A stretch of DNA of 64,000 nucleotides from an uncultured Rhodopila sp. GTDB taxonomy: Bacteria > Pseudomonadota > Alphaproteobacteria > Acetobacterales > Acetobacteraceae. The notes beneath the pieces are model-generated. The model saw nothing but the letters and a program-made list of their open reading frames with translations, had not been told where the DNA came from and did no database searches. The stretch is from the NCBI GenBank assembly GCA_903932145.1, contig CAIZFE010000101.1, positions 1-64,000 on the forward strand. The letters are read 5' to 3'. Each line of letters starts with the position of its first letter. Within the stretch, counting starts at the first letter, position 1. Of this stretch, positions 1 to 15,080 are shown in pieces. The translations under genes were made by a program, and so were the position numbers.

Positions 1-140
1 CATCACCCACCACTGCGATATCCTGGAAACCGGCAACGATTCGTTCCGCTTCAAACAGCGCAAGAAACAGACGAAATCGGGCTGACCAAGTGGAAACTTT
101 TGGACGCTGTTACCTGGAAACTATTCAACGCTGATTGACA
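1..140 (+). mobile_element. Right end of an IS21-family insertion sequence (partial)
   Basis: The window opens inside an insertion sequence. It holds the last codons of an IstB-like helper ATPase and then two tandem subterminal repeats, TGGAAACTTTTGGACGCTG at 91 and TGGAAACTATTCAACGCTG at 115. The element appears to end at ...TTGACA (140). Read on the other strand the end begins TGTCAATC, fitting the TGT...ACA termini and multiple terminal repeats of IS21 elements. The other end lies outside the window, so any target duplication cannot be checked. Confidence 0.7.
2..85 (+). CDS. istB: IstB-like IS21 transposition helper ATPase, C-terminal end only
   Basis: Only the last 27 codons are in the window; they read ITHHCDILETGNDSFRFK and then a basic tail before TGA. 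The THHC-ILETGNDSFRFK pattern is the usual C-terminus of IstB, the AAA+ helper of IS21-family transposases, which loads the IstA transposase onto target DNA. The Walker motifs would lie upstream of the window. It is followed at once by the repeats of the IS right end, as expected because istB is the last gene of these elements. Confidence 0.75.
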   Translation: MTHHCDILETGNDSFRFKQRKKQTKSG

Positions 141-756
141 ACTCCCGTTGCTTACTGTTGGTTTGACGTATGCTTTTGAGGGTTTGCGCCTCAACCATAG
201 CGGTTTTAAAGCCGTCTCTGAAAAACATATATCGTTCAAATAGTTTCTTCCCGACGTTCCGCACATTGAGCTTTGAAGCCTGAACCGCATTATCAGCCAT
301 CCACCTGAAAAAGGGCTTCGCTACTCGAACACCGTGGTGTATCAGACTAACAATTTGGCTGGCTTTCGCCTCCCATTCCTCTCCTTCGGGTGCAAAAATA
401 CCGACACCGAATTTCCGATGCTCGATTAAAAATGCGCGTCCCTCAAAATCAATCGGAATGGACCAAGCTATTTTTTCAAAGCGACCAAGGTCTTTGAAAT
501 TTAGGAGATCAACGAGCAAAAAATAGACCTGATGATAGGGTGGTAACTTCCGCCCTGCGTCAGTGCGGTGTGCCGTGAAAAGGAACTTTTTTTCTGCCTG
601 TGTGGATGAGTCGGCTGGTTTTATCGGCAGTATCACACGATGTGCTAGCTCGCGCACACGTTCGAGTTGTGGTGGAAGAGGTATCGGTGCCCTTCGAATG
701 AGTGATCTCTTGATCGCTTGCTCAATTTCAGCGAATTGCTCCTCGTCCGTTCTCAT
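121..756 (-). CDS. Hypothetical protein, 3' end altered by the IS21 end
   Basis: This encodes 211 residues with no family I recognise. The protein is mixed alpha/beta with charged, hydrophilic composition, no signal peptide and no membrane segment. The start ATG at 756 is preceded by a GAGGAA stretch only a few bases away. The last codons (SISVE and the TAG stop) fall inside the IS21 terminus that ends at 140, so the native C-terminus has probably been replaced by element sequence. Base composition (about half GC in places) is lower than in the core genes of the window, which fits acquired DNA. It may have belonged to the same accessory locus as the hypothetical gene at 1068-1937. Confidence 0.55.
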   Translation of the reverse strand: MRTDEEQFAEIEQAIKRSLIRRAPIPLPPQLERVRELAHRVILPIKPADSSTQAEKKFLFTAHRTDAGRKLPPYHQVYFLLVDLLNFKDLGRFEKIAWSIPIDFEGRAFLIEHRKFGVGIFAPEGEEWEAKASQIVSLIHHGVRVAKPFFRWMADNAVQASKLNVRNVGKKLFERYMFFRDGFKTAMVEAQTLKSIRQTNSKQRELSISVE

Positions 757-909
757 TTCCTCATAACCGGTGTAATAACAACCACGTTGCCCCCTACGCC
801 TATAACGCCAACCTCGAAATCATACTGTCACGACATCCATATACGGTCTGGCGATGTGGCGCAAAGGCTTACTTGTGCGCGAACGGACCGGATCGGCCCA
901 AATGCTGAA

Positions 910-1056
910 TCAGACCCGCGGCGACATTGTGGCCTCGCCGAGACGACGATGACGACGAATGAGAGAAACAAGCGAAAGCAAGTCCTCAGCGTCGATTTTG
1001 GTCATGGTGCCGTTGAAATGCGCCTCGTGCGCCGTCGTGTTTCGGGGGCCGCCCAC
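910..1056 (-). CDS. Possible small ORF, 48 aa, uncertain
   Basis: A minus-strand reading frame from a GTG at 1056 (or ATG at 1005) to TGA at 910-912 gives a short protein with a plausible helical C-terminus (AEDLLSLVSLIRRHRRLGEA). It lies directly after the stop of the 289-residue gene at 1068. No convincing ribosome binding site is visible. The same frame stays open upstream into the 3' end of that gene, so it could also be the displaced tail of that gene after a frameshift. No homologue is recognised. Confidence 0.2.
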   Translation of the reverse strand: MGGPRNTTAHEAHFNGTMTKIDAEDLLSLVSLIRRHRRLGEATMSPRV

Positions 1057-1067
1057 CCAATCAAGAC

Positions 1068-1937
1068 TTATGATGAGGCGGCCAACCTTTTCAGGGCAAG
1101 AAAGATTGCAGCGAAAATCTCTTCGCGAGCGCTGACCACCGCCATAACGAACTCAACACCTACGGGCGTGGGAGGCGTCATCAACATCAGCCCGACTTGC
1201 CGATGCTTGCGCTCGATATCGTCCCGATCCTCCGGGCCAAAAACGCAAATATGATCAAAGAAAAGCTGCTGTGATATATCGATAATCCCCTGATTTCTGC
1301 CCCCTAACTGCATGACCCTTTCGTCTCCGGGCGTGAGTGTTCCGATCCGGCGTTGATTCTCTATAAACTCATCCCGTAATGCCTGCATCTTTGAGTAGAG
1401 ATCGACAAATAAAAGCCTATGCGGAATTTGATGTAGCGATCCTTGAAGCTCCTGGAGGGTCGCGGTGTGCCTCGTCTGACTTTGTTCGATACGCTTCGTG
1501 CGATCATCAATTTCCGCCAGAGCGACAGTATAAGCGTCTGTGATCGCCTTGACCAGCGCGATTTGCTCGGCATTCCAGATTCGTTCGAAGCTCGCCTCTT
1601 CCTTCAACCGAAAGGCGGCGTCGCGAACGAACAGATCAAACCATGAATCAGGAAAACCGGCGCCTTCGAACGCACGCACGAAGGCGGCGGGAAGATTTTC
1701 ATCCAGTGTCGCGGTTCGGAGACGGATTTCCGTCAGAACCGCCCTCTCCGTCGTCGCGCGGGCCTGAGCCAAGCCTTCCGTGAGCGCAGCATTGTCGCCT
1801 CTGGTGCGACGCTTAGCCAAGCTCCCATCAAATATATCCGGTAGCGCCATCAGCACTTGTTCGCGGATCTCCCGTTCGTCCGCTGCAAGACTGGAGGCAG
1901 TGTCGAAATCAGCCCGCTTCGCCGTATTCGTTTCCAT
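1068..1937 (-). CDS. Hypothetical coiled-coil-rich protein
   Basis: This encodes 289 residues and I do not recognise the family. The sequence is strongly helical. A region around residues 130-170 is rich in E, K, Q and R with heptad-like spacing and probably forms a coiled coil. There is no signal peptide or obvious membrane segment, although the last 30 residues are alanine-rich and hydrophobic (VVSAREEIFAAIFLALKRL). The gene is divergent from the toxin-antitoxin remnant starting near 1966 and shares the accessory block next to the IS21 end with the hypothetical gene at 121-756. Function is unknown; a role in a defence or mobile locus is only a guess from position. Confidence 0.55.
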   Translation of the reverse strand: METNTAKRADFDTASSLAADEREIREQVLMALPDIFDGSLAKRRTRGDNAALTEGLAQARATTERAVLTEIRLRTATLDENLPAAFVRAFEGAGFPDSWFDLFVRDAAFRLKEEASFERIWNAEQIALVKAITDAYTVALAEIDDRTKRIEQSQTRHTATLQELQGSLHQIPHRLLFVDLYSKMQALRDEFIENQRRIGTLTPGDERVMQLGGRNQGIIDISQQLFFDHICVFGPEDRDDIERKHRQVGLMLMTPPTPVGVEFVMAVVSAREEIFAAIFLALKRLAASS

Positions 1938-1965
1938 GTCGAGGAAATGTCGGAGTGCCCGGCTG

Positions 1966-2112
1966 AACCGCTCTGCTCTGCACGCCTTTCAAAAGAAGAA
2001 GTCTCCCGACGGCGGGTCGAAGACCGACCAACGGGACATCGAAGCGATCAAGCAGGCACTGAAGGGCGCGCAGGCGCACTACGAGGATAACTACAAGGGA
2101 AAGGGCTGGACA
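1966..2112 (+). pseudogene. Gp49/HigB-like toxin, C-terminal remnant
   Basis: About 44 codons read HAFQKKKSPDGGSKTDQRDI and then a helical tail with the pattern IKQALKGAQAHYED. This matches the C-terminus of phage Gp49-like/RelE-superfamily toxins, whose usual ending is VLHAFQKKS followed by an I-x-L-I-x-x-R-L-K-x-A helix. The N-terminal half of the fold is missing. Upstream sequence from about 1937 belongs to the divergent hypothetical gene. There is no stop codon before the antitoxin, so the remnant reads in frame into it at 2113. Confidence 0.65.
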
Positions 2113-2460
2113 ATGGTTGACGACATTCAGGATGGTCTTCCCGTGGTCCACGACGGCAGCGACATCGTATTTGCCGATCTTGGCCTTCCGGATGCCGACG
2201 AGAATGAAAAGAAAGTGCGGCTCGCGGTCCTGGTGAACCAGGAAATCCGTCGCCAGGGGCTGCGCCAGATCGACGCCGCGGAACGGCTCAAAGCCAATCA
2301 GGCTGAGGTTTCCCGGCTCGTTAACGACAAGCTGTCGGGAATCTCTGAGTGGAGGCTCATGAGCTTCCTCAACGCGCTTGGCCAGGATGTCGAGATCGGG
2401 GTCAGGCCCGCCGGCGGCGGTCATGCGACAACTACCGTGCGGGAATTCGCCGCGACCTGA
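2113..2460 (+). CDS. HigA-like antitoxin, XRE-type helix-turn-helix
   Basis: This encodes 115 residues from ATG 2113. An N-terminal segment (VVHDGSDIVFADLGLPDADE) precedes a helix-turn-helix with the pattern GLRQIDAAERLKANQAEVSR, then a short C-terminal region. This arrangement is typical of antitoxins paired with Gp49-like toxins (HTH_37-type). In such pairs the antitoxin binds the toxin and represses the shared promoter. Here the toxin partner is truncated, so the antitoxin is probably an orphan or a remnant regulator. The reading frame is open upstream through the toxin fragment, and translation could instead begin farther 5' and make a fused protein. Confidence 0.75.
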   Translation: MVDDIQDGLPVVHDGSDIVFADLGLPDADENEKKVRLAVLVNQEIRRQGLRQIDAAERLKANQAEVSRLVNDKLSGISEWRLMSFLNALGQDVEIGVRPAGGGHATTTVREFAAT

Positions 2461-2523
2461 TTCTGTCGGTCGGGGATGTTGCCGAAGCCGGGGCTGAGGG
2501 ATGAGTCCAACCAAACAGAAAAA

Positions 2524-2609
2524 TGGAACCACAGATGCACACAGATGCACACGGATAAGGCAAGAAATCCGCATTTATCTGGGTGCATCTGTGTGCATCT
2601 GTGGTTCCA
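2524..2609. repeat. Perfect 27-bp inverted repeat with 32-base loop
   Basis: The left arm (2524-2550) reads TGGAACCACAGATGCACACA and onward; the right arm (2583-2609) is its exact reverse complement, ending TGTGGTTCCA. With wobble pairs the stem extends several more bases into the loop. Each arm itself contains two tandem CACAGATGCA units. Intergenic sequences built from ATCTGTGTGCATCTGTGGTT are known as dispersed repeats in unrelated bacteria, so this is probably a mobile palindromic repeat rather than a gene-specific structure. Confidence 0.85.
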
Positions 2610-2654
2610 AATTGCTTTCTGCCGCACCCGATATCAGACCAATGGTGTATTGGC

Positions 2655-2785
2655 GTTGACATCGACTTTCGGCCGGCCTCACCTCGTCATTGGCAATACA
2701 AGGAAGCAAGCCCGGGCACAGGCCCCGGTCGGCAGCCACGTCTTTTATGAGTGTGTAAACAAAGACGTGGATGGTGCGGGGGCGG
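2655..2785 (+). repeat. Dispersed intergenic repeat, copy A
   Basis: Sequence from GTTGACATCGACTTTCGGCC onward, through a short hairpin (CCACGTCT at 2736 pairing with AGACGTGG at 2763), matches an inverted copy at 24157-24248. Copy A carries about 20 extra bases between the two conserved blocks. The element has no coding capacity that I trust. Two copies in 64 kb suggest a dispersed repeat family. Confidence 0.7.
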
Positions 2786-2864
2786 CCGGCGTGTGTCACT
2801 GTTAACGCCCGTCGGTATAAAAGGACAGAATTCACCCGATGAACCTGCATCCGCACAATTTTTC

Positions 2865-2893
2865 TTGACTTGTTTCCTAGGTAAATCTACCAT
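2865..2893 (+). promoter_or_regulatory. Predicted promoter abutting the start codon (leaderless)
   Basis: TTGACT (2865-2870), a 17-base spacer and TACCAT (2888-2893) form a sigma-70-like promoter. Only six bases (AGAGGA) separate the -10 box from ATG 2900, so transcription should begin at or next to the start codon. The same boxes with the same spacing precede the decayed paralogue at 7671. Confidence 0.6.
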
Positions 2894-2899
2894 AGAGGA

Positions 2900-3640
2900 A
2901 TGGAAACCTCATCCCCACCGCGTCCGTCCGACGACCTTTTCCCATACCTGTACCACCAGCTCGTCTATACGCTGATAAGCCTGTTGCCGCCGCCGCTGGA
3001 TGGCTCGCCCGAGGCACTCCGCGCCCGCAATCATGCCGCCGTCGCCAAAGTGGCGGCGCTGCTGCCGGTTGGCGCGAATGAGCTCGATCTGGCCGCCCAG
3101 TGCGTCGCCGCCCGCGCCCAGGCCGAGGAGTTACTGCGGCTGGTGCGCCAGCATGAGGGCGACATTCAGGTGGTGGTGCGGCTGAACGCGCAATACGGAT
3201 CGACGGTGCGGGCCTCGCTGGCCGCACATGGCCGCCTGATGCGGGTGCAGGCGGTGCGCCAGAAGCGCGAGGCGGTGGAAGGGGCCGCCACCGCGGACGC
3301 CTGGACGGAGCATGTGGCCGCACAGTCGATGCTGCACGTGGTGGAGCGGAGAGCCAAACCGCCCGAGGCGGCGCGGCCGCCGACGGCTGCTGTGGCGCCG
3401 ACCGGGGTGGCGGCGGAGGGTGTGGGGGAAAGGATTGCGGAGAACGTATCGGAAAATAGGACGAAATCTCAGGGTGTGGCTTTTGAGACGCGGATGAGCG
3501 GGCAGCACCGGGACCTGACGGGCGGGGGATCGGGTTTGCGTGAGGGTGTGGACGAGGCGATGGCCGGATCGCTTTTGGCGCGTGTGCGGGGGCGGGATCT
3601 GGTTGCAAGCGGTCGCGACAGTCCGGTGATGGCGGCGTAG
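2900..3640 (+). CDS. Lineage-specific hypothetical protein, intact copy
   Basis: This encodes 246 residues with no named family that I recognise. The N-terminal 120 residues are helical and well conserved against the decayed copy at 7671-8313 (for example LYHQLVYTLISLLPPPLD and RLNAQYGSTVRASLAAHG). A variable Ala/Pro linker follows, and then a second conserved stretch around GVAFETRMSGQ. There is no signal peptide or membrane segment, so it is probably cytoplasmic. The start ATG at 2900 follows a promoter by six bases and has no properly spaced Shine-Dalgarno sequence, so the mRNA is probably leaderless. It converges with the large GGDEF-EAL gene, with 13 bases between stops. Confidence 0.8.
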   Translation: METSSPPRPSDDLFPYLYHQLVYTLISLLPPPLDGSPEALRARNHAAVAKVAALLPVGANELDLAAQCVAARAQAEELLRLVRQHEGDIQVVVRLNAQYGSTVRASLAAHGRLMRVQAVRQKREAVEGAATADAWTEHVAAQSMLHVVERRAKPPEAARPPTAAVAPTGVAAEGVGERIAENVSENRTKSQGVAFETRMSGQHRDLTGGGSGLREGVDEAMAGSLLARVRGRDLVASGRDSPVMAA

Positions 3641-3653
3641 GGGGCGGCTGTTG

Positions 3654-6600
3654 CTATCTTCCAACCAGTCTCAACACGCGTGGTTGGGTGCGGGCCAACC
3701 CTGGCAGCGCATTCGCCTCTGAGGAGGCCAGGTGGCCCTCAGACGACCGAGACTCCAGCAACCTGATTGCCTCCGGACCTGACATCGGCTTGGCAAACAG
3801 ATAACCCTGGCCGAATTCGCAGCCCATTTCGTTCAGTTGGCGCGCTTGATCTTCGCACTCGATTCCTTCAGCGACCACGCCCATCCCCATGCCTTCTGCC
3901 AGCGACATGATCGTCTTCACAACCTGTTGGCTTTCCCGGTTGTCGATCAAGCCCGCCACGAATGAGCGGTCGATCTTCAAGACGTCCAACGGGAATTTGT
4001 GAAGATAGCTGAGCGATGAATATCCCGTACCGAAATCATCCAGGCTGAGTTGCACTCCCAGGGATTTAAGCTGGGATAAGACGCGCACCGCGCGTTCCGA
4101 GTCACCCATCGTGCCGCTTTCGGTAATTTCCAATTTGATCGTTGTTGGATCGACCCCCGTTTCGAAGAGCACGTTTTCGATGTCACGAACAAGGTCTCGT
4201 TGCGCGAACTGGCGAGGCGAGATGTTGATGCTCATACTCAATTTTCGCCCGGAACCGAACTGCCGGTTCCACGCATGCACGGTCAGGCACGCCTCGCGCA
4301 GCACCCATAGGCCAAGCGGAACAATGATTCCGGTGTCCTCGGCTGTGGCGATAAAGTCGCCTGGATACACCAATCCCCTGCCAGGGACCTGCCAGCGGAC
4401 CAAGGCCTCGAACCCGGCGATCACCTCGGTTGAGAGGGTGACGATGGGCTGGTAGTGCAGCACGAACTCTTGGTTGCGGAGTGCCCGGCGCAGGTCGTTC
4501 TCCAGGTGCAAGCGCTTGGTCACTGTCTCGAGCATCGAGGTATCGTAAACTTCCGCGCGGCTTTTGCCGAGGGATTTGGCCCGGTACATCGCCAGGTCCG
4601 CATCGCGCAGGATGTCTGCCGCGGACTCGTATCCGCCATGACTGGTGGCGATGCCGATACTGGCAGACGCATGGACATCCTGGCCAACGATCGAGAAGGG
4701 AGCCACGAGAGCATCCTTAATGCGGGCGGCCAATGCGAGTGCATCGTCAGCGCCCTCAACGCCAGACATCAACACGGTGAATTCGTCCCCGCCTAATCGT
4801 ATCAAGACGTTCCGCGACTGGTTGTTGGGGATGCCGTCGCCGTCGTTCCGGCGGAAAAGCAGTGCCCGGAACCTATTGGTGACCTGGATCAGAAGGTTAT
4901 CGCCCGCCGTATGGCCCAGGCTGTCGTTGACGACCTTGAACCCATCCAAATCGATAAAGAGCACTGCATAGCCGCTGGCCCCGGGCTCTTTCTGCCGCGC
5001 CAGCGCCCGGTTCAGCCACTCGACGAGGAACGTGCGGTTCGGCAGGCCGGTCAACGGATCATGCAAGGCGTCGTGTACTGCCAATTCCTTGGAGCGGAGA
5101 AGTTCAGCGGCGAGCCGTTCCTGTTCCTCCACAGTGCTGGCGAGCACCGCGTTGCTGTTGGCGAGCGCTGTATTGCTGTCGAGCAACTCGGCACGGGCCG
5201 CGCTTAGTCCCTCGCGTGCCCGATCGAGCCCAAGAGCCGCTTGCTTCACGCCCTGTTGCAGAACATTGAAACTTTTGGCCATAGCGCCGAGTTCGTCCCG
5301 AGAGGACACGGTCACGGGGACAATATCCACCGAGGCATGGGCTGCGTCCAGGTTGCCCGCACCCAGCGCATCCATCGCGGCCGCAAGGTCGCGCACCGTT
5401 CCGAAGGCCAGCCGCTTGGCCGCCTCGCTGACCTGATCGGCGGAATGGGCAATCATGCCAGGAAGAATAATGCCGACGCTGACCGTTAGGATTGAAACCG
5501 CAACAAAGATGTCTTCCAGGGCAACCACGAAGCCTTCCCGGGCATTCGGTATCGCCTGGACGGCGAGAATGTAGCCCGCCGCGTCGAGCGCCAGCACCAG
5601 CAGCATAGCCCCGGTCAGTTTGACATGCAGACTGCGACCAAATCCACTAAGCCCGTGCCGGGATCGATCCTCCAGCATGCGGAGGGCATAGAGCCCGGCG
5701 CCAGAATAGGCCATCAACAGGCCGATTACGACCGTGGGCAGGCCAAACTGCTGGAATCCAAGCAGAGCGCTGCAACCCCAAATAGATGCCGCCACCAGGC
5801 CGAGCCCAATCGTGCCCCGCGGCGCACGGTAGAGCCTTAGTGCGTCAGGAGCATCGCGCCGGAGAAGCCACACTGCGACACTCGGTAGGCAGATGCCGAT
5901 CAGATACGTAAAGTTCGCGGCGGCGATCAGCCAAATCGGATCCCCGATGAGCAGGAACAGGATCGCGAAGCTGGCGGTCAGCAACGTGGCCACCCACGGG
6001 GCGTCGGTGCGCGAACGCCTGTTCAGGATGCGGGGAGCGAGTCCATCCTCAGCGAGCTGCGCCAGGGTCCTTGCAGCACCCGCGAGAGGCTGGATTGTTC
6101 CGTGAAACATATTGAACATCATGAAGCCGACCGCGGCGGACTTCCCGAGACTGCCGAATACGGGAGCAAAGGTGGGGCCGAGCACCTGGTCGAGATCCTG
6201 CCCCATCGCGTCGGGCCCGAGCACGCCCAGCCAGATGATGGGCAGGACTGCGAAATACAGGGCGGCCATGAACGCGCTGGCCAACATCGCCCTGGGCACA
6301 TTGCGGGCGGGATCGATGGTCTCACCAACGTGGCAGGTCGCTGCCTCGAACGCGGGTGCGCCAAAACCGATCAGATACAGCCCGGCCATCACCGACGTCA
6401 CCGAACCGAACCAACCGGGGAAGGGTGTCGTGAGATGGAAGTCAACCGCCTGGCCCCACTGGACCTGTCCGGAAACGAGCGGAGCGATCATCGAAACGAA
6501 GGCCAAAATGGCCGATATGATAGCCACCGGCGCGGCGACCCGTGAAACCCAGCGCACACCGCAGAGATTGATGGCGGTGAAGGCCAAAACCAATACGCAT

Positions 6601-7037
6601 GCAATCAGCGGTACTGGCACGGCTGGCAGGCACCATTGGCCGATAGCGGCTGCGGACAAGAGCGCCGCCACCCCGCAGGTCGGCACCCAGCCCCACCAGT
6701 AACACACGCCCGTCAGCGTCGAGAGGATCGGACTGTAGGGACGAAACGCCGCGGTGCAGGCGGCTGCGATGCCGCCGACGCGATTGGGCGACATGAGTAC
6801 CAACTCGGTCCAACCCGGCGCCGCGAAGTAGCTGAGCAACAGACCGGCGATCAGAAGCGGGATCGCCGCACTGCCCTGCCCGGGAATGTCGCCTTGACCG
6901 ATGAAGAGCGCGGCTATCAGGAACAGGCTTTGGTTGCTGCCGCCCAAGGCCAGCGCGGTCGTTCCGAACCATCCCATGCGCCGCGGATGTAAGCGAGGGA
7001 CGACACCGGTACCGATCGGACGCGGTTCAAGCAACAA
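3654..7037 (-). CDS. Amino-acid-permease-like sensor fused to GGDEF and EAL domains
   Basis: This encodes 1127 residues. Residues 20-450 form about twelve hydrophobic segments resembling the APC amino acid permease family (for example GGSNQSLFLIAALFIGQGD and FGAPAFEAATCHVGETIDPA). Two more membrane segments (about 470-560), a HAMP-like linker and a coiled coil follow. The GGDEF domain keeps RLGGDEF near residue 747. The EAL domain keeps GFEALVRW near 875 and DDFGTGYSS near 997. Both motifs look intact, so it could make or degrade cyclic di-GMP at the membrane in response to a transported or bound solute; that coupling is inference. The start used is TTG 7037; ATG 6977 (residue 21) is an alternative. 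It is flanked by two copies of one hypothetical gene. Confidence 0.9.
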   Translation of the reverse strand: MLLEPRPIGTGVVPRLHPRRMGWFGTTALALGGSNQSLFLIAALFIGQGDIPGQGSAAIPLLIAGLLLSYFAAPGWTELVLMSPNRVGGIAAACTAAFRPYSPILSTLTGVCYWWGWVPTCGVAALLSAAAIGQWCLPAVPVPLIACVLVLAFTAINLCGVRWVSRVAAPVAIISAILAFVSMIAPLVSGQVQWGQAVDFHLTTPFPGWFGSVTSVMAGLYLIGFGAPAFEAATCHVGETIDPARNVPRAMLASAFMAALYFAVLPIIWLGVLGPDAMGQDLDQVLGPTFAPVFGSLGKSAAVGFMMFNMFHGTIQPLAGAARTLAQLAEDGLAPRILNRRSRTDAPWVATLLTASFAILFLLIGDPIWLIAAANFTYLIGICLPSVAVWLLRRDAPDALRLYRAPRGTIGLGLVAASIWGCSALLGFQQFGLPTVVIGLLMAYSGAGLYALRMLEDRSRHGLSGFGRSLHVKLTGAMLLVLALDAAGYILAVQAIPNAREGFVVALEDIFVAVSILTVSVGIILPGMIAHSADQVSEAAKRLAFGTVRDLAAAMDALGAGNLDAAHASVDIVPVTVSSRDELGAMAKSFNVLQQGVKQAALGLDRAREGLSAARAELLDSNTALANSNAVLASTVEEQERLAAELLRSKELAVHDALHDPLTGLPNRTFLVEWLNRALARQKEPGASGYAVLFIDLDGFKVVNDSLGHTAGDNLLIQVTNRFRALLFRRNDGDGIPNNQSRNVLIRLGGDEFTVLMSGVEGADDALALAARIKDALVAPFSIVGQDVHASASIGIATSHGGYESAADILRDADLAMYRAKSLGKSRAEVYDTSMLETVTKRLHLENDLRRALRNQEFVLHYQPIVTLSTEVIAGFEALVRWQVPGRGLVYPGDFIATAEDTGIIVPLGLWVLREACLTVHAWNRQFGSGRKLSMSINISPRQFAQRDLVRDIENVLFETGVDPTTIKLEITESGTMGDSERAVRVLSQLKSLGVQLSLDDFGTGYSSLSYLHKFPLDVLKIDRSFVAGLIDNRESQQVVKTIMSLAEGMGMGVVAEGIECEDQARQLNEMGCEFGQGYLFAKPMSGPEAIRLLESRSSEGHLASSEANALPGLARTQPRVLRLVGR

Positions 7038-7634
7038 TGGCTGACGTCCTGAAAAAAATCATCTAGCGTCCACTTTTGTCGAAATAAAATCGGGTCGTCA
7101 GAAACGACTGGAACTCGCTGTCAGAATCAACCGGTCGCGGTTTGTTTGCCCTGGTTTGTCGCTCTGGTACCCATATAAATGATTGTTTTCAAAATCCAGT
7201 CGGTAGGTGGAATATTCCGCCCATACGCGGTGAGCGACCGGAAAAATCGGTGTCTGGCGAAGGCGGATCGACCCGACGCCAACCATACTTACGTATTCGT
7301 AAATAGTATAAAAGCTCGCGCAACGGCCAATAATTTCAAATTTACGCGTCGCTGTCGCATACTCCGGCGTCTCGCCAAGGCGGCCGACCCCGCCGCCATC
7401 CGCGGGCGTCCATTGTTGAGACATCTGACTTTGATCCAAGGAATGACCGCCGAGGGCGCCGAGCCGACGTACCATTGTCGTAGTTCGCTTCCGGTAGGGC
7501 CATGACGGTGGGAAACAGCATCAACCTGGAACGGTAATGTCCGTACGGGCTGTTCGGCCAGCCATACCGTGGGGAAAACCGGGTGCCACCCGGGTTCACC
7601 CGATGGACCCGAACCGGAACAGCAGTGAGGACCA
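7038..7634. other. Long intergenic region, low GC in part
   Basis: Nearly 600 bases lie between the divergent GGDEF-EAL gene and the decayed hypothetical copy. Bases 7140-7350 are clearly lower in GC than the surroundings. Reading frames exist on both strands but none has a recognisable protein, a good ribosome site or a plausible composition. The region presumably holds the promoter of the large minus-strand gene. An imperfect direct repeat of about 33 bases (from 7248 and from 7365) is present. Confidence 0.5.
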
Positions 7635-7663
7635 TTGACTTATTTCCCATAAAGGCCTACCAT
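7635..7663 (+). promoter_or_regulatory. Relic promoter of the decayed paralogue
   Basis: TTGACT (7635-7640), a 17-base spacer and TACCAT (7658-7663) repeat the boxes in front of the intact copy at 2900. Seven bases then lead to ATTTAA, where the intact copy has ATGGAA. The promoter outlived the start codon. Confidence 0.55.
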
Positions 7664-7670
7664 CCAAGGA

Positions 7671-8313
7671 ATTTAAACCTCATCCCACCGGCCATCGATC
7701 TTTCCGAGCACCTGTATCACCAGATCGCCTATACGCTGATGCGCCTGTTACCGCCGCCGCTTGATGCCTCGGCCAAGGCGCTGCGGGCCAGAAACCATAC
7801 TGCCATAGCCAAAGTGGCGGCGCGGCTGCCGGTCGGCGCGCGTGAGATCGATTCTCGCCGCGCACTGCATCGCCGCGCGGGCCCAGGCCGAGGAGATGCT
7901 GCGGCTGGTGCGGGTGAATGCGGCTAACGTCGAGTTGGTGATTCAGCTGAACGCACAATACGGGTCGATAGTACAGACGTCGCTTTCGGTGCTCGGAATG
8001 CTGATGCGGGTGCAGGCGGTGCGTGCAGGCGGCGCGGGTCGCAGCTGGCTCCTTGTGTAGCGCCGGCGGTTGGTGTGGAGGAGAGTGTTGCGGGGAATGT
8101 CTCGGAAACCGGGACGAATTCCCGGGGTATGGCTTTTGAGACGCGGATGAGCGAGCAACTTCCCGGGTCCAAAGGATCGGGTGAAACGGGTCTGCACGAG
8201 GGTATGCGCGAGGCGATGACCGGATTGCTTTTTGCCAAATTGCTTTTTTTTGCGGCGGCGGGACATGCATGCGAGCTGGTCGCGACAGCGCCGGACGGGG
8301 GTAAGGCGGCCGC
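7671..8313 (+). pseudogene. Decayed copy of the 2900-3640 hypothetical gene
   Basis: The sequence aligns along its length with the intact gene at 2900. The start codon is ATT instead of ATG and the second codon is TAA. A one-base loss near 7685 shifts the frame for the stretch reading LYHQIAYTLMRLLPPPLD. An extra T near 7852 shifts it again before LAAHCIAARAQAEE. A deletion near 8045 removes the linker before the stretch reading GMAFETRMSEQ. The end is recognisable near 8313. It lies in the same orientation as the intact copy, on the other side of the GGDEF-EAL gene. Confidence 0.85.
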
Positions 8314-8380
8314 GGTTGTTCCGGCATTGACCGACGACATCCTGTGCGGCATCAAGCAAAGTCGTGGGTGGCCGGACCAA

Positions 8381-8587
8381 GCCCCATATGCATCAGGATA
8401 AGCGTCGGGCGGAGAATATTCGTGCCACGGACGTGGCTTTCCCCCCTCCGTCATGGCCGGGCTTGGCCCGGCCACCCACGACTGTCTGTGCCGCGCCAAC
8501 CAAAGTCCCGGGTGACCGGGCCAAACCCGGTCATGACGAATGGGCAAATCCTCCCCACCCAACGGCTTATCCTGATGCTTATGGGGC
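8381..8587. repeat. Nested palindromic element (MITE- or REP-like), 207 bp
   Basis: Outer arms of 23 bases (8381-8403 and 8565-8587) are inverted copies with one mismatch, around GCATCAGGATAAGC. Inner arms of 28 bases (8450-8477 and 8510-8537) are inverted copies with three mismatches and carry the GTCATGGCCGGGCTTGGCCC core of the REP-like family found elsewhere in the window. The element lies between the decayed hypothetical copy and the binding-protein gene, with no credible coding sequence. Confidence 0.75.
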
Positions 8588-8723
8588 CAAGCCGGGGCGA
8601 TGGCGGCTGGGGAGGTTTCCTGGCGATATTTGCCCGTCCTGACAGACCCTAAGCGAGTGGGCTTGGTTTCGGCTCGCCAATCGGCAACCATGCATTCCAC
8701 GAACGAACGGGGATGCGCACACC

Positions 8724-9737
8724 ATGCTGAAAAAGCTTCTTTTTGCCGCCGCCATGCTGGCCGTGGCGGCCACGGCTCAGGCCGGGACGCTGGAATCGGT
8801 GCGCCAGAAGGGGTTTGTGTCCTGCGGCGTGAACACCGGGCTCGGCGGATTCTCGATGCCGGACAGCAAGGGCGTGTGGCGCGGGCTCGACGTGGATGCC
8901 TGCCGAGCCGTGGCGGCTGCTGTGTTCGGGGATGCGGAGAAGGTGCGGTATGTGCCGACCACGGGGACCAGCCGGTTCGCGGCGTTGCAATCCGGAGAAA
9001 TCGACCTCCTGGCGCGCAACACGACGTTTACCTTCCTGCGGGATGCGACGATCGGGCTGCGCATGGTGATGGTGAATTTTTATGACGGCCAGGGCTTTCT
9101 GGTGCGCAAGGATGCCAAGATTGGCGGGCTGAAGGACCTCGCGGGGGGTACGATTTGTCTGCTGCAAGGGTCCACGCATGAATTGAACCTCGCGGACTGG
9201 ATGAAACAGCACAATACTGAATTCAAGCTTGTGCTGCTCGACACCACCGATGTGCTGATCAAGGCGCTGTTGTCGAACCGGTGCGATGCGGCGTCGTCGG
9301 ACAGTTCCAACCTGGCCTCGATCCGCGGGGCCGGCGTGCCGAACCCGGACGATTACGTTATTTTGCCGGATCGTATCAGCAAAGAGCCGCTTGGCCCGAT
9401 GGTCCGCCGAGCAGACGACCAGTGGTTCGACGTGGTGCGGTGGTCGATGATGGCGATGCTGGAAGCCGAGGAGAATGATGTCACCTCGGCCAATGCGGAC
9501 CAGATGCTGGCTGACAGCCCCAACCCGACTGTGCAGCGTTTGCTGGGCAAGACAGGTGATTTTGGCAAGCTGATCGGGCTGGATAACGCGTTCGGGTTTA
9601 ACATCATCAAGCAGGTCGGCAACTACGGCGAGTCCTATGAGCGCAACGTCGGCAAGGCCAGCTCGCTGAAGCTGGAGCGTGGGGCGAACGCATCCTGGAC
9701 CAACGGCGGCCTGATGTACGCAATTCCGTTCCGGTGA
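8724..9737 (+). CDS. Amino-acid ABC transporter substrate-binding protein, AapJ-like
   Basis: This encodes 337 residues. A signal peptide (MLKKLLFAAAMLAVAATAQA) is followed by a type 3 periplasmic solute-binding domain. The pattern VSCGVNTGLGGFSMPDSKG, then RGLDVDACRAVAAAVFGD and LLARNTTFTFLRD, is characteristic of AapJ/BztA-type binding proteins for general L-amino acids. The protein would capture amino acids in the periplasm for an ABC permease. No permease or ATPase follows; the next gene, an MFS transporter, overlaps its stop codon. It may serve a transporter encoded elsewhere or have another role. The start ATG 8724 is well supported by the signal peptide. Confidence 0.9.
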   Translation: MLKKLLFAAAMLAVAATAQAGTLESVRQKGFVSCGVNTGLGGFSMPDSKGVWRGLDVDACRAVAAAVFGDAEKVRYVPTTGTSRFAALQSGEIDLLARNTTFTFLRDATIGLRMVMVNFYDGQGFLVRKDAKIGGLKDLAGGTICLLQGSTHELNLADWMKQHNTEFKLVLLDTTDVLIKALLSNRCDAASSDSSNLASIRGAGVPNPDDYVILPDRISKEPLGPMVRRADDQWFDVVRWSMMAMLEAEENDVTSANADQMLADSPNPTVQRLLGKTGDFGKLIGLDNAFGFNIIKQVGNYGESYERNVGKASSLKLERGANASWTNGGLMYAIPFR

Positions 9738-10984
9738 CGTCTCCCGGTCGCAACAGCCGGTCGGATGTGCTGGCGCCGTTTGCCGTTCGCAGCTTCCGGT
9801 TCCAGTTTCCGGCCGACCTGCTGACCTCCTGGGCCGGCGAGATGGAGATCCTCATACTCGGTTGGTACATCCTGACCGAGACGGGGTCGGTGTTGCTGCT
9901 GACGGTGTATGGGTCGTTGCAATATGGCGGCACGCTGATCGCGCCGATGTTCGGGTTGGCCGGGGATCGGATGGGGCACCGGAACGTGCTGAGCGCGATG
10001 CGGGTGGTGTATGCGGCGTTGGCGTGCGTGATGACGACGCTGGCGGCGCTGCATGCGTTGAACCCGCTGGCGGTGATGCTGATCGCCAGCGTGGTGGGGT
10101 TGATCCGGCCGTCCGACCTCGCAATGCGGAATGCGCTGGTGGCGGAGACGATGCCCGGCGACCGCCTGATGGCGGCGATGGGGTTGGCTCGGACGACGAC
10201 TGATTCCGCCCGGGTTGGCGGGTCGCTAATCGGGGCGGGGTTGTTCGCGGCGTTGGGTATGGCGCCGGCTTATGTGGTGATCACGGTGTTTTACGCTGTC
10301 GGATTTGCGTTGACGCTCGGTGTCGGGGCGCCGCGTCCGTCCGGCGTGATGGCTCGACTATCGTTCTGGAGCGATATGCGCGAGGGGTTGTCCTACGTGT
10401 GGGACACGCCAGCGTCGCTGGCGGCGATGTGGCTGGCGTTCCTGGTCAACATGACGGCGTTTCCGTTGACGCTGGGGTTGCTGCCATATGTGGCGAAGGA
10501 GATCTACCATGTGGGGCAAACCGGCCTGGGGTCGCTGGTGGCCAGCTTCGCGTTCGGGGCTCTGACCGGGTCGGTGGCGATCGGGTTCGCGGGCCGAGCG
10601 ATCCGGCCGGCTCGGATGATGATTATTTACACGTGCATCTGGTATTCGATGCTGCTGGTGTTCGTGCATGTGCCGGGGATCGTCGGCGGGCGGGTTAGCC
10701 TGGTGCTGGCGGGGTTCGCGCAGAGCCTGTGCATGACTCCGATGGCGGTGATGCTGCTGCACAGCGCGGGGGCGAAGTTCCGGGGGCGCGTCATGGGGGT
10801 ACGGATGTTGGCGATTTACGGGCTGCCGTTGGGGCTGCTCGCGGCGGGCGGGTTGATCGAGCGGTTCGGATTTGCCGCTACCGCGACGGCTTATTGCCTG
10901 ACCGGGTTGACGCTGACACTGATGATCGCGTTGCGCTGGCGTGCGGCGTTGTGGCCGCTGGACGCGCCGGCCAATGCGCGCTGA
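9734..10984 (+). CDS. MFS family transporter
   Basis: This encodes 416 residues with about twelve hydrophobic segments and the loop motif GLAGDRMGHRNVL between the second and third helices, typical of the major facilitator superfamily. The overall pattern resembles the enterobactin-exporter (EntS)-like MFS group with a DUF894-type fold. The substrate cannot be told from sequence. The GTG start at 9734 overlaps the TGA stop of the binding-protein gene (GTGA), which implies translational coupling. That pairing of an ABC binding protein with an MFS pump is unusual. Confidence 0.85.
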   Translation: MTSPGRNSRSDVLAPFAVRSFRFQFPADLLTSWAGEMEILILGWYILTETGSVLLLTVYGSLQYGGTLIAPMFGLAGDRMGHRNVLSAMRVVYAALACVMTTLAALHALNPLAVMLIASVVGLIRPSDLAMRNALVAETMPGDRLMAAMGLARTTTDSARVGGSLIGAGLFAALGMAPAYVVITVFYAVGFALTLGVGAPRPSGVMARLSFWSDMREGLSYVWDTPASLAAMWLAFLVNMTAFPLTLGLLPYVAKEIYHVGQTGLGSLVASFAFGALTGSVAIGFAGRAIRPARMMIIYTCIWYSMLLVFVHVPGIVGGRVSLVLAGFAQSLCMTPMAVMLLHSAGAKFRGRVMGVRMLAIYGLPLGLLAAGGLIERFGFAATATAYCLTGLTLTLMIALRWRAALWPLDAPANAR

Positions 10985-11098
10985 GGTCATTCGCACATGT
11001 GAACAAGATGTCATCGGGGCGACGACGATTTGCCGCAATCCGGTCACGATGAGTGCCCATGTTCCTCAACGTTGGATCGCGTTAGAGGAGTGAAACCG

Positions 11099-11428
11099 AT
11101 GTTACGCTTCAAGGCCCTTATGATCGCGGCACCCGTCGCTTTCGGGCTGCTCGCCGCCCCTGCCGCGCATGCCGAGTGGCACGGTCGCGGCGGCGGCTGG
11201 CACGGCGGTTATGGCCACCATGGCGGACCGGGCGTTGCCGGTGCGATCATCGGCCTCGGGGCAGCAGCCGTGCTGGGTGGCGTGATCGCGTCGCAGGCTT
11301 ATGGACCGCCCCCTGTGTATTACGCTCCGCCGCCGCCGGTTTATTACGCCCCGCCGCAAGCGTATTATGCGCCGCCGCCGGTCTATTACGCCCCTGCCCC
11401 GGCGTATTACTACCGGCGAGGGTATTAA
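11099..11428 (+). CDS. Secreted low-complexity protein with YYAPPP repeats
   Basis: This encodes 109 residues. A signal peptide (about 1-25, ending AHAEW) is followed by a Gly/His-rich stretch (WHGRGGGWHGGYGHHGGPG), one hydrophobic glycine-alanine segment (VAGAIIGLGAAAVLGGVIAS) and five Pro/Tyr repeats of the type VYYAPPP, ending YYYRRGY. This design is common in small exported or outer-envelope proteins of alphaproteobacteria, function unknown. The start is ATG 11099, preceded by GAGGAG at good spacing. An upstream in-frame ATG at 11030 would hide the signal peptide and is less likely. Its stop overlaps the stop of the convergent gene at 11425. Confidence 0.8.
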   Translation: MLRFKALMIAAPVAFGLLAAPAAHAEWHGRGGGWHGGYGHHGGPGVAGAIIGLGAAAVLGGVIASQAYGPPPVYYAPPPPVYYAPPQAYYAPPPVYYAPAPAYYYRRGY

Positions 11429-12354
11429 CAGGTCGTGGTTGCCGCGGCGGCCTGCACGAGTCGTTTCGCTAACTCAGAGGGCAGGCCGGCCGCGATCAGT
11501 AATTCGGCGTCGAAGCCGGCGTTGGTTCGGATTGATGCGGCCAGTGCGGTCACGGCCTCGTGAAGCCGGTCGGGATCAATTGCAAGCATTTGGGTGGATG
11601 CTGGTTGGGGTGATGCGGTCACGAACGGCTTTAGTCTCAGTCTGGCGGCATGGTCCGAGACGCTTGGTTTGTTGTCCATATCCAGGCCCCGGTAGTACCG
11701 CTTCTGCCATTGATCGGCACCTGATGCCGGAGTCTTCACCGCGACATCGGCCTGAAACGCGTTGCGCGATTGGCTCCATGCGGCGAATTGCCTTGCCGCC
11801 TCAGGGTTGTCTTTCAGCGGAACGAATTTGGGGTCCATGCGCTCCAACGCGCCGCGCAGCGTCGGCTGGAGGAAGCAGATCGGCTCCCCCGCCTCGAACC
11901 GGATCCAGTGGTTACGTCGGAGGAAACGCCAGTTCATCGTGAAGGTGTAGGGTGACCAGTCAGTCTCGATAACGCCGGACAAGGGCGCGATGCCCTCTTT
12001 GGCACTGTTGGGGGAGCCGCCCACGAACAGGTTCCAACCCGGTGGTGTCCGGAACAGGCCCTGGATATGCACCGTCAGCGTCGCCTGCCCGAACAGCGAC
12101 ACCGGGGCCGAGGCTGCCGGCATGTCGCGGTCCGATCGGATGATCACGTCGGCGGTCGAGGCTCCGCCACGCCAATAGGCGGAAAACCCAACCGGCGTCA
12201 GAACTTCCCAGCCATGGGCGTTGGCGATGTTGAGCGGCAGGCAGCGATAGGCAAAAGCCTCCGGTGTGGCATCCATCCAGGCGCGAGTCGGTTCCGCGGG
12301 CCGGATCAGCGGGTGCCACCCCTCATGCAGATAGCAAATGAAATCCATTGCCAA
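11425..12354 (-). CDS. DUF6065-like protein
   Basis: This encodes 309 residues. The opening resembles the DUF6065 family as I remember it (ICYLHEGWHPLIRPA, then WMDATPEAFAYRCLPLNIAN). The N-terminal 200 residues look like one globular domain, and the C-terminal 80 residues are helical. There is no signal peptide, membrane segment or known catalytic motif. The family has no established function; members often lie near secondary-metabolism or oxygenase genes, but nothing of that type is next to it here. It converges with the YYAPPP-repeat gene, and the two TAA stops overlap by two bases. Confidence 0.75.
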   Translation of the reverse strand: MAMDFICYLHEGWHPLIRPAEPTRAWMDATPEAFAYRCLPLNIANAHGWEVLTPVGFSAYWRGGASTADVIIRSDRDMPAASAPVSLFGQATLTVHIQGLFRTPPGWNLFVGGSPNSAKEGIAPLSGVIETDWSPYTFTMNWRFLRRNHWIRFEAGEPICFLQPTLRGALERMDPKFVPLKDNPEAARQFAAWSQSRNAFQADVAVKTPASGADQWQKRYYRGLDMDNKPSVSDHAARLRLKPFVTASPQPASTQMLAIDPDRLHEAVTALAASIRTNAGFDAELLIAAGLPSELAKRLVQAAAATTTC

Positions 12355-12673
12355 TCTCCATCGATTTCCAGTGGTGGTGGTCCCAGGCTGGATAAAGACG
12401 ATGGAGTAAGCAAGGTAAAGTTGGACCAGGCGACGAATGCCGCTCGGGGACGCGGTTTACCGGCGCCGCACCGTGTGGACGTCGCGGACGACACTGTTGG
12501 CCATCGCGCCGTAGGCTTTCGGCGCGGTGCACACTACCCCGCGTCCGCTTTTCAGCCTGATGGAGGAGTTCGGACTGAGACATCAAAGTCGGCGCGATTA
12601 TCGGCGTTGGCGGACAGGCGGAAATATGCCGGTTGGATGGGCGGGTTAACACCGGGAGAACCCGCCCTCCCCC
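12355..12673. other. Intergenic region, nothing recognised
   Basis: About 320 bases between two minus-strand genes. Short reading frames exist but none has a recognisable product or ribosome site. It presumably carries the promoter for the DUF6065-like gene and the 3' region of the dehydratase gene. Confidence 0.5.
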
Positions 12674-14542
12674 TCAGAACGCCTTATCCGCCTCCGGCCG
12701 GTGACCATTCCGCGGCACAAACCCGGACCGCTCCGCCACACGCGGGTCACGGACCCAGACCTCGCGGTTCGGGTGCAGGCCGCCGCCGCGGGTCGCCGGC
12801 ACCGCCATATGCCGGGCGCGGTGCAGCAGGCGCGTGTCGGCGATACCGCAAAGCGGGTGGACCCCGCCGTTGGCGGCGACCGCCTGATCCCACGCCGCTT
12901 TGCGCTTCGCCAGCGTGGCGGGATCGTTCAGCACCGTGCAGTTCAGTTCGTTGCTGTTCAGGTCGGCGACGATCTCGTCCCCCTCCTCAATGAACGCGAT
13001 CGGGCCACCCAGCGCGGCTTCCGGTCCGACGTGGCCGATAACCAGGCCGACCGATCCGCCGGAAAACCGAGCGTCGGTCATCAGCGCGATGACAATGCCG
13101 CGGTCCCGGCACAGCGTGGTGATGCGCGATGTCGGGTCCAGCATCTCCGGCATCCCCGGCGCGCCGCTGGGACCCTCATACCGCACAATGACCATGTCGT
13201 TGTTCTGGAAGCTGTCCGGGGCCTGATCCAACGCCGCCAGCAGGGCCTGCTCGCCCTCGAAAATGCGGGCGCGGCCGCGGAAGATGTTGCCTTCCAGACC
13301 GCCCTCGACGCCCGCCAGTTTCAGGATCGCCGAGAAATCAGGCGACAGGTTGCCGCCGAGAACACGCAGGCCGCCGGTGGGTTTGTATGGCTTGGCGACG
13401 GGGTAAACCACCTTACCGTCCACGGCCGGCGTGCCCAGGCGAGCGACCTGCTCACGCAGCGTCTCACCGGTGCAGGTCATGACGTCGCCGTTCAGCAGAC
13501 CGGCTTCCATCAGTTCGCGCACGATCACCTGCACGCCGCCGACGCGGTCGATATCGACCATCGAATACTTGCCGTAGGGTCGCGCGTCGGTCAGCACCGG
13601 GATGACGTATTGCGAGAGGTAGTTGAACTCCTCCGGCGTCATGACGTCCTTCCAGAAGTCGGCGTAACCGGCGGCGCGGGCGATCTCCGGCGCGTGCAGG
13701 GTGACGTTGGTGGATCCACCAATGGCCATCGCCACGATGACGGCGTTGCGCAGCGAATCGCGCACCACGATGTCGCGGGGCTTGATGTCCCTGGCGATCA
13801 TGTTGGCGAGATATTCGACCAGTTGGGCCGGGAACTCCGTCACCCGGCGCGGATCATCGGATGCCGGTGCGACCATGTGCAGCGGCTGCATGCCGACGAC
13901 GCCGATGAAGGTCTGCATGGTGTTGTAGGTGAACATGCCGCCACAGCTTCCAATGCCGACGCAGGCATTGCAGGCGATGTGGTGGCGAAACGCCGCGTCG
14001 GGATTGCCCGCGACCTGGTAGGCGCTGACGATATCCAGCATCTCGCCGGTCTTCGGGTCCGTGCCGGGGTGGATCGGTCCGTCGGACATGATGATGCCCG
14101 GCTGGTTGTGCTCCAGCAGTGCGGACAGCGTGCCGACCGGCGGCTTGTCGCAGGCGACGACGGCGATCGTGCCGGCCAGGCCGGTGGCTTCCAGATGCTC
14201 GCACAGCGAGTCATGTGTCACCTCGCGCCCGATCAGCGAGTAGCGCATTTCCCGGGTGCCGTTGCGGATGCCGTCGGAGGTGCCGATGGTGTATTCGGGC
14301 TGGACGAGACGGAACGGCAATTGGCCCTCGGCCCTACCGACGCGTTCGCGCAGGCGGTTGTGTATCGCGTCCACCTTCGCCAGCACACCCAGATAGCACT
14401 GGCTGTCGCCCTTGGTGCCGACGACGCCGACCGACGGCTCGTGAATCAGGTCCGGGTCGGTGCCGATCACCTTTGCCATGCCGATGGACTGAGCCGACCG
14501 GCCGGGGTGGCGATCGATCAGAACGACTTTTGAATTTCGCAC
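12674..14542 (-). CDS. IlvD/Edd-family dehydratase (YjhG/YagF-like)
   Basis: This encodes 622 residues. Motifs of the dihydroxyacid dehydratase family are present: VVACDKPPVGTLSALLEH, GIGSCGGMFTYNTMQ with an Fe-S ligand cysteine, and LMTDARFSGGSVGLVIGHVG near the C-terminus. These enzymes use an iron-sulphur cluster to dehydrate a dihydroxy or sugar acid to a 2-keto acid. The length and the opening (VGVVGTKGDSQCYLGVLAKV) point to the YjhG/YagF xylonate-dehydratase-like branch rather than IlvD of isoleucine/valine synthesis. Substrate is unproven. The start is GTG 14542 with GGAGAG in front. A broken ilvD fragment lies directly upstream. Confidence 0.88.
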   Translation of the reverse strand: MRNSKVVLIDRHPGRSAQSIGMAKVIGTDPDLIHEPSVGVVGTKGDSQCYLGVLAKVDAIHNRLRERVGRAEGQLPFRLVQPEYTIGTSDGIRNGTREMRYSLIGREVTHDSLCEHLEATGLAGTIAVVACDKPPVGTLSALLEHNQPGIIMSDGPIHPGTDPKTGEMLDIVSAYQVAGNPDAAFRHHIACNACVGIGSCGGMFTYNTMQTFIGVVGMQPLHMVAPASDDPRRVTEFPAQLVEYLANMIARDIKPRDIVVRDSLRNAVIVAMAIGGSTNVTLHAPEIARAAGYADFWKDVMTPEEFNYLSQYVIPVLTDARPYGKYSMVDIDRVGGVQVIVRELMEAGLLNGDVMTCTGETLREQVARLGTPAVDGKVVYPVAKPYKPTGGLRVLGGNLSPDFSAILKLAGVEGGLEGNIFRGRARIFEGEQALLAALDQAPDSFQNNDMVIVRYEGPSGAPGMPEMLDPTSRITTLCRDRGIVIALMTDARFSGGSVGLVIGHVGPEAALGGPIAFIEEGDEIVADLNSNELNCTVLNDPATLAKRKAAWDQAVAANGGVHPLCGIADTRLLHRARHMAVPATRGGGLHPNREVWVRDPRVAERSGFVPRNGHRPEADKAF

Positions 14543-14589
14543 ACTAGCTCTCCGTTGAAACGCTTACCCGACGCCTTGTCGATTCCGTG

Positions 14590-14870
14590 GTGGCTGAATG
14601 TACTGCCTGTCGCGCCATGGCAATACCGTCATCGTCGGCGATGGTCTGGAACTCCCTCGCGACGCCGCCAGCTGCCTCGATCTCGCGCGCCACCACATGG
14701 CCGAGGTCTTTCAGGTGGGCGTGACGGGGACGAATTGAGTAAAGCTGTTGCAGACCGCGATGTTGGGCTTTCCGAAGTCGCCATCCTTCATGCCAGTCTC
14801 GCGCCACAGGCCTTCGGGGCCGGCCATGTTGCGGCCGCGGGTGGTAAGGCCAGATGGGCGGGATGCGGCG
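14590..14870 (-). pseudogene. ilvD: ilvD (dihydroxy-acid dehydratase) N-terminal fragment
   Basis: The minus strand reads [18 protein letters not shown], then [20 protein letters not shown], and after a frameshift at [10 protein letters not shown] continues [26 protein letters not shown]. This matches the first 85 residues or so of IlvD almost motif for motif. The frame breaks inside the conserved FVPGHVHLKDLG motif (about 14722), decays after DGIAM, and the rest of the gene is absent. The fragment ends about 50 bases before the start of the YjhG-like dehydratase, so a rearrangement between related genes is possible. A functional ilvD must be elsewhere. Confidence 0.8.
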
Positions 14871-15080
14871 TGTTCGATCGTCTGCGAAATTGTCTTCAAG
14901 GGAAGATTCAAAAATCTTGACGCGGCCGATCCCGATGCGCTACAAGTTCGAATAGTGGAAAGGCTTTCTGTTCGATCTACCGTTAGATGTGGACGTCAGA
15001 TCATTCCACTCGCTAACCGGCGCGGGATCACCGGGTATCTCTCATCAAATTTTGAGCTTCGGCTCTAGAGAATACCCGCA

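Follow-up and report, generated by a model that had tools for sequence, protein, structure and literature searches.

The window analyzed here, 64,000 nucleotides (nt) of contig CAIZFE010000101.1 from an uncultured Rhodopila sp., carries at positions 3654..7037 a gene in which a permease-like membrane domain is joined to enzyme domains of cyclic di-GMP (c-di-GMP) turnover. A sequence-only reading of the window had placed such a fusion in this span; the coordinates were retained, and the coding strand was found to be the minus strand, on which a single open reading frame of 1127 residues runs from 7037 to 3654 with no internal stop (the first plus-strand frame contains many). The start codon is a TTG at 7037, and an AGGA was read by eye 9 nt upstream of it. 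According to the translation, Pfam and an AlphaFold2 model, the gene encodes, in order, an APC permease-like domain, two appended transmembrane helices (TM13 and TM14), HAMP, a coiled coil, GGDEF and EAL. Pfam matched AA_permease_2 at residues 22-415 (E = 1.6e-31; 110 bits vs. a cut-off of 27), AA_permease at residues 53-366, HAMP at residues 548-597 (4.6e-8; 33.7 bits vs. a cut-off of 25), GGDEF at residues 657-826 (3.2e-35) and EAL at residues 847-1084 (2.5e-74), the last two above their curated cut-offs. The fusion, including its HAMP-like linker, was thus borne out. No RNA elements were detected at the gathering threshold in positions 1-15000 of the window.

The APC (LeuT-fold) domain occupies residues 15-457 (5667..6995; this and all following features of the gene lie on the minus strand) and was delimited using Pfam, AlphaFold2 and PDB matches. 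AlphaFold2 yielded a confident, near-complete LeuT-type APC fold for the membrane part, as the sequence-only reading had supposed, and the PDB fold matches included KimA with c-di-AMP (8b70, 8b71). In the full-length model, both helices that are discontinuous in the LeuT fold are broken, TM1 at 34/36 and TM6 at 223/226. Twelve membrane segments had been claimed; the model has fourteen, i.e. the twelve of the APC fold plus TM13 (470-495) and TM14 (from 498), and the TM14 helix runs into the HAMP helix. The TM13-TM14 hairpin spans residues 470-531 (5445..5630), with conserved helices and a short, unconserved loop at 494-505 (alignment and AlphaFold2).

In APC proteins, TM1, TM3, TM6 and TM10 line the substrate site. 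Sequence comparison located GGSNQSLF at the TM1 break (residues 32-39, 6921..6944); it replaces a GxGIF-type sequence, which we take to be the usual APC TM1 substrate motif and which occurs as GGGIF in the free permeases L124, L127 and L136 (L numbers denote loci or proteins in this study). The family alignment shows an aromatic motif in TM3, GVCYWWGWVPTCG (residues 110-122, 6672..6710), whose invariance derives partly from the search pattern, and GFGAPAFE (residues 224-231, 6345..6368; alignment and AlphaFold2), located around the TM6 break, also served as a search pattern.

The HAMP region comprises residues 532-597 (5247..5444), of which Pfam recognized 548-597, and directly follows a membrane helix, as in HAMP receptors. 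It is succeeded by a signalling helix or coiled-coil linker at residues 598-656 (5070..5246), modeled by AlphaFold2 as helices at 582-628 and 642-658, with a predicted local distance difference test score (pLDDT) below 50 at 625-641. The GGDEF domain (residues 657-826, 4560..5069) retains its active-site motif as RLGGDEF at 747-753. Residues 740-743, five residues ahead of GGDEF and presumably the position of the inhibitory RxxD site, read QSRN, so this site has not been kept; it is not essential to diguanylate cyclases. The catalytic motifs of EAL domains comprise the E of EAL, N, E, DD, K, E and Q, and every corresponding string was located in the EAL domain (residues 847-1085, 3783..4499), with FEALVRW at 876-882 and DDFGTGYSS at 1000-1008; the earlier claim of intact signature motifs in both domains therefore holds. 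Residues 659-1087 align with the solved tandem GGDEF-EAL structure 5m3c (E = 4e-103) and also with 4rnh. Degenerate domains that serve for binding only were not favored, the motifs being intact.

An assembly or sequencing error that fused two genes was rejected. The reading frame is unbroken: there is neither a stop nor a frameshift at residues 450-560, where such an error had been proposed as a refutation, and most of this stretch is conserved among 74 relatives; the refutation therefore fails. Moreover, the domain-architecture search that had been suggested recovered the same permease-GGDEF-EAL order at 16 other loci (L019, L020, L026, L038, L046, L053, L055, L056, L058, L064, L068, L080, L086, L088, L092 and L096), so the fusion is no assembly artefact. 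Signature motifs vary among these loci; L056 has AGDEF, and L026 lacks the EAL and DDFG strings sought.

Relatives were gathered by scanning genomes with a profile of residues 1-600, with an exact GVCYWWG or GFGAPAFE required at each locus, so that motif invariance and the family boundary partly reflect the search itself. There were 85 confirmed relatives, mostly from metagenome-assembled genomes (MAGs), of which 80 were listed (L019-L098), at 52-78% identity. By sequence, residues 15-600 are a recurrent module joined to interchangeable outputs. The 76 readable C-termini contained HATPase_c (57), GGDEF (17), EAL (16), HD_5 (1), receiver (32) and Hpt (6) domains; those of L031, L084, L095 and L098 were unreadable, the loci being too short, cut, broken or partial. 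In L057 the cut falls inside the kinase, and L060, which stops shortly behind the module (694 residues), may be a broken gene. No intact, free-standing permease copy of the module was present among the 80 listed loci. AA_permease_2 was matched at E <= 0.01 in 56 of 61 module rows, and HAMP at the same threshold in all 61.

Going by the titles of the records, the module was found in Alpha-, Beta- and Gammaproteobacteria, Verrucomicrobiota and Actinomycetota, with single rows from Chloroflexota, Omnitrophota and Dormiibacterota. Its distribution is patchy: it occurred in 5/150 genomes of the family and 5/395 of the order (the source genome counted in both), and the order-genome scan gave no match in the 18 listed genomes of the source's own genus. 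Among 72,556 plasmid records, it was carried by one, from Paraburkholderia. In the source genome (6.66 Mb, 115 contigs) the module is present once, accompanied elsewhere by one other AA_permease_2 protein (L133). A motif-unbiased search of 398 genomes of the phylum at E <= 1e-12 revealed no other copy; the window itself scored 1187 bits, the partial permease matches in 27 other genomes scored 91 bits or less, and nothing fell between. Viral relatives were rejected, as only general permease folds appeared at E <= 0.001 (4 of 213 matches).

For 75 modules (55 with kinases, 18 of c-di-GMP type including the window, 2 of unknown output), a quick tree required 6 changes of output type, whereas 200 shuffles of the labels gave 16.3 on average and 12 at minimum. 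A single clade of all c-di-GMP types was rejected (approximately unbiased test, p-AU = 6.6e-6). The window's module clusters with those of three other permease-GGDEF-EAL proteins, one from Lichenicoccus (L096) and two from Beijerinckiaceae (L019, L020), with a Shimodaira-Hasegawa-like approximate likelihood-ratio (SH-aLRT) support of 99. Alignment A3 leaves out L077, L084, L089, L090, L095, L098 and L103; alignment A4 was reduced by hand to 61 rows.

Sensor domains are expected to be variable; here the reverse was observed, the module being better conserved than its outputs. Among the 17 GGDEF-EAL members, mean identity fell from 70.8% in the permease part through 66.6% (TM13-14), 56.7% (HAMP) and 47.4% (GGDEF) to 45.6% (EAL); permease identity exceeded that of EAL in 136/136 pairs and that of GGDEF in 135/136. 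For 43 of the 55 kinase rows, i.e. those with both HisKA and HATPase matches, the permease part averaged 66.9% vs. 45.6% for HATPase and was higher in 900/903 pairs. Mean identity to the window over the 74 relatives was 0.85 for TM6 and TM10, 0.79 for TM3, 0.78 for residues 81-105, 0.77 for TM1 and TM13, and 0.73 for TM14; it was low at residues 456-470 (0.45) and in the TM13-TM14 loop (0.16). On this pattern, sensing would fall to the APC core and transmission to the hairpin.

The sequence-only reading had also suggested that a transported amino acid is sensed. Simple amino acid sensing lacks support, because the TM1 motif has been replaced and the nearest free-standing transporters in the set tested are of another kind, resembling permeases of trimethylamine N-oxide (TMAO). 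For four module members, the best named transporter family was TMAO permease (NF053774), at 111 bits for the window and 109-127 bits overall, with the next family at 61-70; these scores are far from the family's cut-off of 690, which the free permeases L106, L107, L109 and L114 surpass (754-870 bits). Of six free relatives tested, L124 and L126 belong to other families. Identity over the permease part was 21.5-25.8% for the 15 free-standing relatives compared; the plasmid collection gave 192 records, and the other 24 of these that were listed did not exceed 32.2%. A tree of 35 permeases shows the module as one clade (100/99) joined to the TMAO-like group (100/100), with L133 outside that group. 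The bootstrap of this tree was unsettled, and only that join is used; the TMAO-like rows other than L135 were retrieved by the profile of the module itself, and the ten unbiased permeases include some that were selected on a crude hydrophobicity criterion and sit on very long branches. Module and TMAO-like group have C112, W114, W117, P119, E231, N375 and Y378 in common, and many other conserved positions differ. A methylated amine as the ligand is a lead only.

Neighboring genes were surveyed at 78 loci, with gene clusters counted if present in at least 4 loci and with no background rate. Recurring neighbors were two-component genes (15, 8 and 4 loci), an ABC ATPase (8 loci) and two further families (4 loci each). 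Around 16 of 17 c-di-GMP-type loci, no kinase, receiver, GGDEF, EAL or HD-GYP gene lay within 3 kb; the sole exception was L088, from a Nevskia MAG, where a second HAMP-GGDEF-EAL protein (11585-13924) is encoded directly after the permease-GGDEF-EAL gene. A c-di-GMP response regulator lay within 400 bases at 9/59 kinase-type loci (L104 counted; no control rate): REC-HD-GYP in L034, L035, L052, L089 and L091, REC-EAL in L071 and L104, and REC-PAS-GGDEF-EAL in L037 and L069. Among these, L034 and L089 look closely related, the L091 regulator is on the opposite strand, and contig ends cut some loci. Other neighbors of kinase types were OmpR-type regulators (L078, L079 and L082 tested) and hybrid kinases (L036 and L063 tested), with a hybrid kinase gene immediately upstream in L074, L085 and L104. 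On the Paraburkholderia plasmid (L104, 6163-13543), the hybrid kinase precedes the module-kinase, and REC-EAL and REC genes follow, an apparent phosphorelay to c-di-GMP. A gene reading like a 2-hydroxyacid dehydrogenase was present at 6/78 loci, several of them related (L025, L027, L078, L093, L094, L104), 116-3927 bases from the module gene on both strands. Neither it nor the ABC ATPase holds a fixed position. Naming a ligand from the neighbors was rejected, none being near or common enough.

Elsewhere in the window, two copies of a ca. 245-residue protein lacking a Pfam match flank the permease-GGDEF-EAL gene, at 2900-3640 (+) and 7583-8327 (+). They share 75-82% DNA identity in blocks, and the second is apparently split over frames; this unnamed multi-copy family has 28 matches in the genome (both flanking copies included), more than 12 of them near full length. 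An imperfect 47-nt inverted repeat with arms 16 nt apart is located at 2512-2621. A gene for a family 3 solute-binding protein, with a major facilitator superfamily (MFS) transporter gene directly after it, was found at 8724-10984 (+), and a full-length DUF6065 protein (E = 2e-93) at 11428-12354 (-).

On balance, we consider it probable that the protein is a transporter-derived membrane receptor whose APC-fold domain signals via the TM13-14 hairpin and HAMP to c-di-GMP enzymes. A small solute would bind the central site of the APC-fold domain, and the resulting alternating-access movement would pass to the appended hairpin, whose last helix, in the model, continues into HAMP and the coiled coil. 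These would in turn set the dimer geometry of GGDEF and EAL, and hence the c-di-GMP level of the cell; at other loci, the same module appears ahead of histidine kinases. Several observations weigh against this proposal. The module-only model lacks the TM6 break, and the models are of monomers (predicted template-modeling score of 0.60 at full length). The relatives were gathered by their membrane part under an exact-motif filter in TM3 or TM6, which inflates module conservation. At the 78 loci, no neighbor common to most and naming a ligand was found (counts without a control). Finally, CbrA can function as a kinase in the absence of the transporter domain, and L-histidine had no significant effect on its activities (PMC7096432), so fusion need not mean sensing.

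A serious but less likely contender is a working transporter whose outputs report flux, i.e. a true dual-function transceptor combining substrate uptake with signalling. It would suit the near-complete LeuT fold, and also TM1, TM3, TM6 and TM10, which rank with the best-conserved parts; a parallel in its favor is CbrA, which both transports histidine and is a kinase (PMC7096432, PMC13022988). However, the scans showed no intact free-standing module copy, the free APC permeases used for comparison have a different TM1 motif, and Ks-Amt5 lost transport on becoming a sensor (PMC5764959). Reverse coupling, in which transport would be gated by c-di-GMP or GTP bound to the cytoplasmic domains, is improbable: there are solved structures of an APC-fold transporter, KimA, in complex with a cyclic dinucleotide (c-di-AMP), but receptor-type GGDEF and EAL domains are usually degenerate and those here have intact catalytic motifs, and 57/76 relatives bear kinase ATPase domains, which are usually outputs. 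Least probable of all is that the permease part monitors a physical state (that of the membrane, or a proton or ion gradient). Coupling to ion gradients is frequent among APC-fold proteins, and no substrate-indicating neighbor is common to most loci, but the conservation of TM1, TM3, TM6 and TM10 (for TM3 and TM6 partly due to the search pattern) favors a specific ligand.

Beyond the receptor reading of this one protein, we raise, tentatively and as rather doubtful in its entirety, a cross-phylum, unnamed receptor family whose TMAO-permease-related APC module senses one shared small solute, perhaps a methylated amine, and feeds c-di-GMP directly (permease-GGDEF-EAL) or, in some kinase types, by phosphorelay to HD-GYP or EAL response regulators. 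Within the set tested, the nearest free kin of the module by profile score and tree are the TMAO permease-like transporters (ca. 22-26% identity, ca. 530-590 residues), which lack its HAMP and output. The folds of the 5TMR and MHYT sensors are unrelated to the APC module, and these have five or six TM helices, unlike the fourteen modeled here. They resemble it in coupling a polytopic membrane input to kinase, PAS, GGDEF or EAL outputs (5TMR; PMC11109136) or to GGDEF plus EAL (MHYT; PMC8846402, PMC9756655). Closer in plan are the SLC5-STAC histidine kinases CbrA and CrbS, in which a LeuT-superfold transporter domain likewise lies N-terminal to the output in one chain; CbrA has been termed a rare transceptor (PMC13022988; see also PMC7096432 and PMC7918813), transceptors are described as rare (PMC13022988, PMC11109136), and the trigger signal of CbrA has been called elusive (PMC13022988). 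CbrA is an SLC5-STAC-PAS-kinase, whereas the present module is APC and has TM13-14 plus HAMP where CbrA has its STAC linker; in the cases described, CbrA and CrbS have kinase outputs only, with no GGDEF-EAL. No SSF (SLC5) domain was found in the window protein at Pfam E <= 1, where AA_permease and AA_permease_2 were listed, and STAC was absent from its matches (presence of a STAC model in the library is unconfirmed), HAMP standing between transporter and output. Ks-Amt5, too, is a sensor derived by joining a transporter domain to a signalling output, but it is an Amt trimer without HAMP and has a histidine kinase output (PMC5764959).

Open-licence literature searches returned no description of an APC-HAMP module or permease-GGDEF-EAL protein and no text naming AA_permease together with GGDEF, and being confined to that literature they are no proof of absence; by a term search, a 2022 census of c-di-GMP sensors (PMC8846402) does not use the word permease in its main text. 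Beside the known transporter-kinase fusions, the protein is classed as a transceptor-like receptor that combines an APC module with a TM13-14/HAMP coupler and interchangeable outputs. The family constitutes a large natural series that pairs one strongly conserved transporter module with histidine kinases in some members and with c-di-GMP enzymes in others. If the proposal is true, a permease-type input would be added to c-di-GMP sensing.
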